From contig JAPZRF010000008.1 in the NCBI GenBank assembly GCA_027531145.1, positions 1 through 64,000 on the forward strand: DNA of 64,000 nt, read 5' to 3'. Position 1 is the first letter of the stretch. Every line of letters starts with the position of its first letter. This document shows, one piece after another, positions 40,418-45,871 of the stretch. This DNA is from Brevundimonas sp. GTDB lineage: Bacteria; Pseudomonadota; Alphaproteobacteria; Caulobacterales; Caulobacteraceae. The translations under genes were made by a program, and so were the position numbers. The notes beneath the pieces were generated by a model. That model had not been told where the DNA came from and ran no database searches. It saw nothing but the letters and a program-made list of their open reading frames with translations.

Positions 40418-40539
40418 CGGTCGGCTCCTGCCATGAGGCCACAATAGGCCACAGGTGCCGTGGTTGGTTAAGATGAAAAGGCTGCGTCCCGTTCACGCCC
40501 GCTTTGCGAGCGCGCCCGGCTTCGCCTAAACCGGCGACC

Positions 40540-42132
40540 ATGCCGAAGCTCTCCTCCGCCATTGACCGTCACAGCCCTGCCTTCAAGGCTCTGGAGACGC
40601 ACAATCGCGCCCTGCGCGACGAGCTGCGAGCCCGGGTGGCCGAGGCGGCCCTCGGCGGCCCGGAAGCTAGCCGCGACCGTCACGTCAAGCGCGGCAAGCT
40701 GCTGCCCCGCGACCGGGTGGAGCGGCTGCTGGACCCTGGCTCACCCTTCCTGGAGGTGGGACAGCTCGCGGCCTTTGGCCTCTACGGCGGCGAGGCCCCC
40801 GGTGCCGGCATGATCTGCGGTGTCGGCCGGGTCTCGGGCCGGGAGGTGATGATCGTCGCCAACGACCCGACGGTGAAGGGCGGCGCCTACTTCCCGATGA
40901 CGGTGAAGAAGCACCTGCGGGCCCAGGAGATCGCCGAGCAGAACCACCTGCCCTGCGTCTATCTGGTGGACTCTGGCGGGGCCAACCTGCCGCACCAGGC
41001 CGAGGTCTTTCCGGACCGCGACCACTTCGGCCGCATCTTCTTCAACCAGGCGCGGATGAGCGCCCGGGAAATCCCGCAAATCGCCTGCGTCATGGGTAGC
41101 TGCACCGCCGGCGGGGCCTATGTGCCGGCCATGTCCGACGAGACGGTGATCGTCAGGAACCAGGGCACGATCTTCCTCGCCGGCCCGCCGCTGGTGAAGG
41201 CCGCCACCGGTGAGGTGATCTCGGCCGAGGACCTGGGCGGGGCCGGGACCCACGGGCGCAAGTCTGGCGTGGTCGACCATGTGGCCGAGAACGACGAGCA
41301 CGCGCTGGAGATCGTGCGCTCGATCGTCGCCAACCTGAACACGGTGAAGCGGGTCGAGCTGGACGTGCGCGAGCCCCGCGCCCCGGCCTTCGACGCCGAG
41401 GAGCTTTACGGACTGATCCCCGAGGACGTCCGCGCGCCCTATGACGTGCGTGAGGTCATCGCCCGGGTGGTCGACGGCTCGGACTTCGACGAGTTCAAGC
41501 GCGACTACGGCACGACCCTGGTCTGCGGCTTTGCCCGCATCTGGGGCTATCCGGTCGCCATCCTCGCCAACAACGGCGTTCTATTCTCGGAAAGCGCGCT
41601 GAAGGGCGCGCACTTCATCCAGCTGGCCTGCAAGCGCAAAACTCCGCTGGTGTTCCTGCAGAACATCTCGGGCTTCATGGTCGGCGGCAGGTACGAGGCC
41701 GAGGGCATCGCCAAGAACGGGGCCAAGCTCGTCACGGCTGTGGCCAGCGCGGAAGTGCCGAGGTTCACCATCCTGATCGGCGGCAGCTTCGGTGCCGGCA
41801 ACTACGGCATGTGTGGCCGGGCCTATTCGCCGCGCTTCCTGTTCACCTGGCCGAACAGCCGCATCTCGGTTATGGGCGGGGAACAGGCCGCCAGCGTGCT
41901 GGCCACGGTGCACCGCGACGCGGACGGCTGGACCCCGGACCAGTCCGAGGCCTTCAAGGCCCCGATCCGCCAGAAGTACGAGGACGAGGGTAACCCCTAC
42001 TACGCCACCGCCCGCCTGTGGGACGACGGGGTCATCGACCCGGCCCAGACCCGGGACGTGCTGGGCCTCGCGATCTCGGCCAGCCTGAACGCCCCGATCC
42101 CCGAGACGCAGTTCGGCGTGTTCAGGATGTGA
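40540..42132 (+). CDS. mccB: methylcrotonyl-CoA carboxylase beta (carboxyltransferase) subunit
   Basis: [65 protein letters not shown]. Confidence 0.92.
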
Positions 42133-42141
42133 GCCCAGGGT

Positions 42142-42220
42142 GTGAACAGTGCTAGTGAGCAAGAGGTGAGCAGACCGTCGTACTGCCTTTGCTCACCTCT
42201 TGCTCACTAGCACTGTTCAC
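42142..42220. repeat. perfect 31-bp inverted repeat (17-nt loop), heptad-like composition
   Basis: GTGAACAGTGCTAGTGAGCAAGAGGTGAGCA - GACCGTCGTACTGCCTT - TGCTCACCTCTTGCTCACTAGCACTGTTCAC. Confidence 0.97.
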
Positions 42221-42261
42221 TCTCCGGCCCGTCGTGCGTTGATGTCCCGAAGGAGTTTCCG

Positions 42262-43161
42262 ATGACCAAGACCCCCACCGACGCCGACCTCAACGCCCTC
42301 GACATCACGCCCGGCGAGGCAGCCGAGATCAACGCCATCTCGCACCCGCTGCTGGCGGACGCCGCCCCGGACGCCGATTCGTCGCTGGTGCAGATCGACT
42401 CCACGCCCGAGGGGATCGTCTTCATCACGATCAACCGACCGGAGAAGAAGAACGCCTTCGACGCGGCCACCATCGCCGCCCTGCGCGAGGCGTTCGAGAC
42501 CCTGCATGGGGCCGACCATATCCGCGCGGTGTTCCTGCGCGGGGCGGGCGGGACCTTCAGCGCCGGGGCCGACCTGTCGTGGATGCGCGACGCGGTCGAG
42601 TGGTCCGAGAGCGACAACCGCGACGACGCCATGGGTCTGGCGCGCATGCTCAGGGCCCTGCACGACATCCCGGCCCTGACCGTGGCCCTGGTCGAGGGCG
42701 CGGCCATGGGCGGCGGCGCCGGGCTGGTCGCCGCCTGCGACATGGCCGTGGCCGTGGAGGGTAGCCGCTTCGCCTTCTCCGAGGTCAAGCTGGGCCTGAT
42801 CCCCGGCACCATCGCCCCCTACGTCATCGAGGCCGTCGGGGCCCGAAAGGCGCGCCAGCTGTTCCTGAGCGCCAACATCTTCGATGCGGACTACGCCGCC
42901 CACGTCGGCCTGATCGACATGGTGCTGCCCGACGGCTCGGTGGAGGAGTTCATCTCCATGCTGACCGACAGCCTGACCGCCAATGCGCCCGGTGCCATGG
43001 GCGAGGCCAAGCGGCTGGTCCACGACGTCGCCGGCCGTCACCTCGACCACGGGCTGATGGAGGACACCGCCCGCCGCATCGCCCGCGCCCGGGTCTCGGC
43101 GGAGGGCCAGGAGGGTGTCCGCGCCTTCCTCGACAAGCGCCCGCCGCGCTGGGCGGAATGA
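42262..43161 (+). CDS. enoyl-CoA hydratase/isomerase family; probable methylglutaconyl-CoA hydratase
   Basis: FITINRPEKKNAFDAATIAAL...GAGGTFSAGADLSWM...GAAMGGGAGLVAACDMAVAV; sits between mccB and mccA. Confidence 0.88.
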   Translation: MTKTPTDADLNALDITPGEAAEINAISHPLLADAAPDADSSLVQIDSTPEGIVFITINRPEKKNAFDAATIAALREAFETLHGADHIRAVFLRGAGGTFSAGADLSWMRDAVEWSESDNRDDAMGLARMLRALHDIPALTVALVEGAAMGGGAGLVAACDMAVAVEGSRFAFSEVKLGLIPGTIAPYVIEAVGARKARQLFLSANIFDADYAAHVGLIDMVLPDGSVEEFISMLTDSLTANAPGAMGEAKRLVHDVAGRHLDHGLMEDTARRIARARVSAEGQEGVRAFLDKRPPRWAE

Positions 43162-43166
43162 GGTCC

Positions 43167-43275
43167 GAGTGGCGAGTGGCGAGCAGGTTGCGCCGTCCGC
43201 AGTCGATCCTCGAAACGATGTCATCGCCTCGGCGGCGGAATGCCGCGTCTCGCCACTCGCCACTCGCCACTCGCC
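43167..43275. repeat. long inverted repeat of GAGTGGC heptads
   Basis: GAGTGGCGAGTGGCGAG at 43167-43183; CTCGCCACTCGCCACTCGCCACTCGCC at 43249-43275. Confidence 0.93.
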
Positions 43276-45171: not shown

Positions 45172-45318
45172 CCTCCTCTCCTTCAAGGAGAGGGTGTCAT
45201 GCGGAGCATGACGGATGAGGGGTGTCAGCGCCGAGGATCTGCTGATCCGGCGAGGTCGACGTTGACGCCCCTCATCCGAGCCGCTTCGCGGCCCACCTTC
45301 TCCCACAAGGGGGTAAGG
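45172..45318. repeat. composite intergenic palindromic element
   Basis: CCTCTCCTTCAAGGAGAGG; CGGATGAGGGGTGTCA (45212-45227) vs TGACGCCCCTCATCCG (45263-45278); GCCGCTTCGCGGC (45280-45292); CCTTCTCCCACAAGGGGGTAAGG. Confidence 0.85.
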
Positions 45319-45779: not shown

Positions 45780-45783
45780 AGGC

Positions 45784-45867
45784 AGTGGCGAGTGGCGGGT
45801 GATTAGTGGCGAGGAACGCTCTATAGCCCGCAGCCGCCTTGCGACTCGTCACTCACCACTCGCCACT
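45784..45867. repeat. long imperfect inverted repeat of GTGGCGA-type heptads
   Basis: AGTGGCGAGTGGCGGGTGATTAGTGGCGAG (45784-45813) pairs with 45838-45867 (..GCGACTCGTCACTCACCACTCGCCACT). Confidence 0.9.
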
Positions 45868-45871
45868 CCCC

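Follow-up and report, generated by a model that had tools for sequence, protein, structure and literature searches.

Intervening sequences (IVSs) with an S23 open reading frame occur in the 23S rRNA of Leptospira, Coxiella and Brucella, and we know of no nuclease or recombinase activity for S23. The heptanucleotide repeats of Calothrix are the STRR. In the Coxiella IVS, heptameric tandem GACAGAT repeats precede the S23 ORF and the transcript is cut by RNase III; RNase III also acts on the 23S IVS hairpins of S23 elements, and S23, a four-helix bundle (XCC0516, PDB 2gsc), forms a pentamer (PMC4990558). A link between S23 and Avd has also been noted (PMC10053308). Heptameric intergenic repeats have been reported as GGGAATC in Xanthomonas and GGGGA(T/C)T in Nostoc (PMC4692102) and, mostly in direct orientation, as TAACTGA in Beggiatoaceae (PMC4679880). 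The GGGAATC class of X. campestris comprises 186 dispersed G-quadruplex-type repeats, with 70 inverted pairs, and groES and ruvA are among the neighboring genes (PMC4692102). S23 is not mentioned in either repeat paper under any name searched, a term search of PMC4692102 gave no hit for four-helix, 23S rRNA or intervening sequences, and no report linking S23 with heptamers, palindromes or repeats was found among open-licence papers.

The hairpin described here lies between mccB and ech in a 64,000-nt stretch of a Brevundimonas sp. genome, hereafter the window (Table 1). With a probability of roughly 0.8, it is a solo, gene-less and non-autonomous copy, similar to a REP or MITE, of an S23 heptad-hairpin element. 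Its membership of the S23-element family is well supported at the level of sequence, by shared arms, by co-inheritance of S23 clade and arm unit, by the greater number of matching solo hairpins in genomes with a matching S23 gene and by the comparison of filled and empty sites. Like the 23S rRNA IVS, the full element has an S23 gene within an inverted-repeat stem; by contrast, the Brevundimonas element resides at protein-gene junctions and most of its copies lack the S23 gene.

Table 1. Heptad palindromes of the window and the genes flanking the mccB-ech hairpin.
Feature	Coordinates	Strand	Description
Left arm	42142..42172	+	GTGAACA-GTGCTA-GTGAGCA-AGAG-GTGAGCA, imperfect 7-nt repeats
Loop, 17 nt	42173..42189		Not common to S23 element or other hairpins
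Right arm	42190..42220	+	Exact reverse complement of left arm
Extended stem, 38 nt	42135..42227		92% complementary
Upstream host gene, mccB-like carboxyltransferase	40504..42132	+	Outside element
Downstream host gene, crotonase/enoyl-CoA hydratase (ech)	42262..43161	+	Outside element
Second heptad palindrome	43166..43266		Unit GTGGCGA; arms 18/18, 65 nt between; next gap of mccB-ech cluster
Third heptad palindrome	45781..45870		GTGGCGA type, 34-nt arms, 79% complementary

The original prediction described a perfect 31-bp inverted repeat of lower GC content than its surroundings and without a T-tract, set between mccB and a hydratase gene. Each of these points was borne out. The arms are complementary at 31/31 positions around the 17-nt loop, the arm has 52% GC compared with 69% for the window, and a site scan found no terminator-like site bearing a T-run at the hairpin; the gene names were broadly right, and the words GTGAACA and GTGAGCA picked out in the arm are variants of one 7-nt unit, copied imperfectly. 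The predicted RNA fold has a free energy of -71.9 kcal/mol (z = -10.2 relative to dinucleotide shuffles). Within the window, a 20-nt segment of the arm occurs solely as the two arms of the hairpin, and it was contained in 0/100 shuffles, even with 3 mismatches allowed. The hairpin lies 7 nt past the mccB stop codon and ∼34 nt ahead of the next start, between co-directional genes, and a biotin carboxylase gene follows crotonase in the cluster. An Rfam scan of the window returned tRNAs alone and no rRNA. Located at a protein-gene junction, the hairpin is therefore not a 23S rRNA IVS, yet it is related to one.

The GTGGCGA unit of the second palindrome is also present in the arms of 11 S23 genes from sister genomes, and the GTGGCGA heptad pair has 36 matches in the source genome. 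Since no S23 gene with GTGGCGA-type arms was found in that genome, the second and third palindromes have the appearance of orphans left behind by an element that was lost. The window also contains an imperfect 55-nt inverted repeat of a different kind (71%; GGAGAGGG...GGATGAGGGG) at 45180-45310, which is probably another dispersed intergenic repeat, because a similar sequence follows mccB in locus L091.

Related copies of the mccB-ech hairpin were sought throughout the source genome (2.85 Mb in 52 contigs). At least four related hairpins are present in other gaps, at C37:233644, C37:105305, C38:68412 (ruvA-ruvB) and C46:273105 (groES-groEL). Separated copies of the arms occur at C23:7103-7142 and C23:7515-7548, on either side of a gene (C23:7157-7471) for a protein of 133 amino acids that matches 23S_rRNA_IVP (PF05635, E = 4e-36) and the TIGR02436 four helix bundle protein and, more weakly, Avd models (bAvd 2e-4; Avd 6e-6). 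This is the sole PF05635 gene in the genome and is situated between aguA and aguB. The left arm of the C23 element is identical to the mccB-ech arm at 28/31 positions. The C23 copy thus has the organization of an S23/IVS-type element, a PF05635 gene between complementary arms, and the mccB-ech hairpin has arms alone, which match those of the full element in the same genome. Like MITEs, the hairpin has terminal inverted repeats and exists in dispersed copies; the Y1 domain expected for REP/RAYT was not found in the gene between the C23 arms. As a separate observation, heptad elements are found in the groES and ruvA neighborhoods of both Brevundimonas (L007, L015) and Xanthomonas (PMC4692102), which are possibly shared preferred sites of such elements.

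PF05635 is present in 65 of 121 Brevundimonas genomes, and 83 S23 genes with usable flanks were compared. The mean flank inverted-repeat score of these loci was 23, against a null with a mean of 9 and a 99% point of 12; the null maximum of 24 came from a set containing one real heptad palindrome and fell to 17 once known sites were removed. Nearly all of the 83 genes have arms of 7-nt repeats, and the best period was 7 nt in 74; at the agu locus L054, arms missed by the flank test were read by eye. The units differ between loci (GTGGCGA, AGGCAGT, AGGGATT, GTGATTA, GGGTGTG and others), and in nearly all listed arms the G-rich arm is the 5' arm. The GTGCTA/GTGAGCA type, to which the mccB-ech hairpin belongs, reads as a degenerate heptad: the best period at its seven S23 loci was 11, 8 or 6, whereas sister types are clean 7-mers.

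A tree of 91 Brevundimonas S23 proteins (122 columns; deep forks weak) was compared with the arm units. With arm classes defined after the arms had been inspected, 15 changes among 13 states were required on the tree, compared with a mean of 60.4 and a minimum of 53 in 1000 shuffles, and most arm classes occupy clades of their own. Judged from these sequences, the S23 protein clade and the heptamer unit are co-inherited. Dispersed copies of a unit, too, are found mainly where the S23 gene bears it. Outside S23 loci, AGGCAGT arrays were present in 13 of the 14 genomes whose S23 gene is of the AGGCAGT type, compared with 17 of the 107 remaining genomes (Fisher 1.5e-8, a value that ignores kinship, so that related genomes inflate the counts, and some of the 17 have S23 loci that were not read). 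A GTGCTA/GTGAGCA-type S23 gene is present in seven genomes, six of which are among the 25 with that type of hairpin, a count in which the S23 arms can themselves match the query. In 19 of these 25 genomes no S23 gene with such arms was present among the loci examined; hence the S23 partner of these hairpins is often absent or lost.

The mccB-ech gap is mostly empty in other genomes. A hairpin occupies it in only 6 of 132 genomes, and in several others that share the gene order the gap is short and the hairpin is absent. In comparable sister carriers the arms are decayed, with 19-20 of 22-23 pairs or fewer retained. Given this decay, the perfect arms in the source genome suggest a young copy, arising through insertion or re-copying. 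Of the suggestion that the palindrome is mobile or actively maintained, the first part points the right way, given the copies in the genome, a site that is empty in most of the genus and the tie to a gene-bearing element; the second part is not supported, given the decayed arms in sister species, and perfection of the arms looks like recency rather than upkeep. The hairpin is neither without copies elsewhere nor present in all relatives, so that the idea withstands the refuting condition set out in the original prediction.

At the aguA-aguB junction of all 20 S23-free genomes that were fetched, and of several more, the stop codon of one gene directly meets the start codon of the other (ATGA, TGATG or similar). 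S23 elements fill the junction in about 26 genomes; they fall into four different protein clades and arm types, which may represent four insertions, or one insertion with concerted arm change. At this junction we saw no hairpin that lacked S23, and thus arms and S23 gene arrived together. No clear target-site duplication was seen at the junction, the mccB-ech hairpin had no close pair of an empty and a filled site to compare, and no transposition was observed in the genome comparison. At agu, the S23 frame of the GTGGCGA type begins at ATGA. In these GTGGCGA elements (e.g. L055, L059, L162) the right arm is translated as a new AguB N terminus (TSLATRHSPLAT...), and the start codon of the extended AguB comes from the element.

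The same arm architecture was observed for plasmid S23 genes of Nostoc, Calothrix, Anabaena, Geminocystis and Gemmatirosa; the arms are weaker in Riemerella, and no inverted pair was found at the Oscillatoria locus. In Azospirillum lipoferum, S23 lies inside 23S rRNA sequence, as judged by eye, and the IVS arms are also heptads. A more distant sample of 76 S23 loci, obtained from a scan of species genomes, covered Planctomycetes, Acidobacteria, Bacteroidetes, Chloroflexi, Clostridia, Patescibacteria, proteobacteria and others. The flanking inverted repeat exceeded the 99% point of the null at 57 of these loci, and the period was 7 at 52; a clear flanking repeat was missing at about a quarter. 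A search of a phage collection returned no S23. Individual loci vary. In a Planctomycetota MAG (L244), S23 is set between very long heptad arrays, ∼200 nt per side, of GTGGACG/GTGGACA units. Strong inverted repeats at S23 loci of a Muribaculaceae (L213) and a Clostridia (L254) genome have no clear period of 7 (9 in L213) and possibly represent other arm designs. On plasmids of Anabaena sp. 90 and Pseudanabaena galeata (L190/L191), an S23 element is found between CRISPR cas6 and cas4, and 23S rRNA IVP appears in a figure of CRISPR-linked domains (PMC10910872); heptad arrays might be mistaken for CRISPR loci, or interact with them.

The arms of S23 genes from Xanthomonas and cyanobacteria belong to the same class as the heptameric repeats reported from these organisms, and those repeats, like the S23 solos, consist of 7-nt units that are intergenic and often in inverted pairs. 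S23 was found in 28 of 31 genomes in a sample of the genus Xanthomonas, and at nearly all of the 30 loci read the arms were GGGAATC, GGGATTC or GGGACCG. The GGGANYS heptad pattern occurred 494 times in X. codiaei (S23 arms GGGACCG), against 0 for the reversed pattern; the corresponding counts were 247 and 5 in a Pseudoxanthomonas genome and 180 and 21 in a Phormidium genome. Two genomes with other arm types had just 7 and 4 such heptads.

The direction of neighboring genes was also recorded. Outside agu, 56 of 64 S23 genes have the same direction as the upstream gene, and the downstream genes are evenly split (28 same, 34 opposite). Most solo hairpins are only some tens of bases away from a start or stop codon; by gene calls made with a simple GC-based rule, the gaps of 29 classified hairpins included 15 co-directional, 8 divergent and 1 convergent. 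The sense setting of solos and S23 genes fits insertion into, or survival in, transcripts.

At the level of sequence, the full element consists of a left arm of G-rich 7-nt repeats, a gene for an S23/IVP four-helix-bundle protein of ∼125 amino acids and a reverse-complement right arm. Solo copies retain the two arms and a short loop, dispersed in gaps adjoining genes, and relate to the S23 element as REPs do to RAYT genes or MITEs to a parent transposon. We infer the mechanism of movement, and the role of S23 in it, as follows. The S23 elements probably still move: S23 may recognize the heptad hairpin of its own element, in RNA or DNA form, and may drive or license the copying of such hairpins. 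As in REP/RAYT systems and MITEs, many short gene-less palindromes share their ends with one coding copy; unlike in those systems, the partner is S23, which has no known catalytic site, rather than a Y1 or DDE transposase, the arms are tandem heptamers and no clear target duplication was evident at agu. Once transcribed, the mccB-ech copy would be cut by RNase III, splitting the mRNA much as a 23S IVS leaves rRNA. It is plausible that it acts as an RNA-processing element, as the original prediction had allowed; its RNA is probably an RNase III substrate, as IVS stems are, and a cut at the stem may therefore uncouple the two parts of the message.

Processing of this kind might instead be the whole purpose of the hairpin, as a selected RNA element of the operon (an RNase III site, mRNA stabilizer or attenuator) unlinked to mobility. 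The very stable fold, the placement just after mccB between co-directional genes and the shortage of convergent gaps among the classified hairpins would suit such an element. It is nevertheless unlikely, given that so few genomes have a hairpin in this gap, that the decayed arms of other comparable carriers show no sign of upkeep and that the same arms are found at unrelated genes and around an S23 gene. A plain transcription terminator would share the position after a stop codon, but the T-tract is missing and only 1/29 classified hairpins is in a convergent gap; long perfect palindromes can also arise in assembly, although independent assemblies share hairpins at this site and others. Neither terminator nor artefact deserves serious weight.

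Two further explanations accept mobility and differ in its agent. The hairpin could be a MITE derived from an ordinary insertion sequence, the transposase of which has been lost or is encoded elsewhere, with the S23 gene hitch-hiking in palindromes. Inverted-repeat ends, small size and dispersal are indeed MITE-like, and many hairpin-bearing genomes lack a matching S23; a hitch-hiker would not, however, be expected to travel as a unit of S23 clade and arm or to carry such arms in many phyla, and the empty agu sites are free of hairpins, so that arms and S23 arrived together. We consider this quite improbable. A route through reverse transcription, in which a resident enzyme works with S23 as the DGR reverse transcriptase does with Avd, would draw on the matches of S23 to Avd models, the homologous four-helix bundle shared with this accessory protein (PMC10053308) and the sense orientation after the upstream gene. 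By contrast with Avd, the S23 element has no attached reverse transcriptase or template repeat. RVT_1 was found in only 30 of 121 genomes, and was equally rare with S23 (16/65) and without it (14/56); a resident reverse transcriptase therefore seems unneeded for copying, and this route is very unlikely. The preferred reading remains that of a solo copy of the S23 heptad-hairpin element.

The pairing of S23 genes with heptamer inverted repeats has apparently not been described before as one system. S23/IVP proteins were discovered in rRNA intervening sequences and have lacked a function ever since, and intergenic heptameric repeats have lacked an origin; the two are joined here in that the protein clade predicts the surrounding heptamer, and AGGCAGT, the unit counted genome-wide in Brevundimonas, is scattered mainly where S23 matches. 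At about even odds, S23/IVP proteins may form a pan-bacterial class of mobile element with matched heptad-hairpin ends, moved by a mechanism for which the element requires no known transposase and no reverse transcriptase of its own; the orphan heptamers of Xanthomonas, Nostoc, Brevundimonas and others would be the non-autonomous offspring of this class. S23 and the heptad repeats would each gain a directly testable partner, and the 23S rRNA IVS would be a special case among the landing sites of a far broader class of elements.
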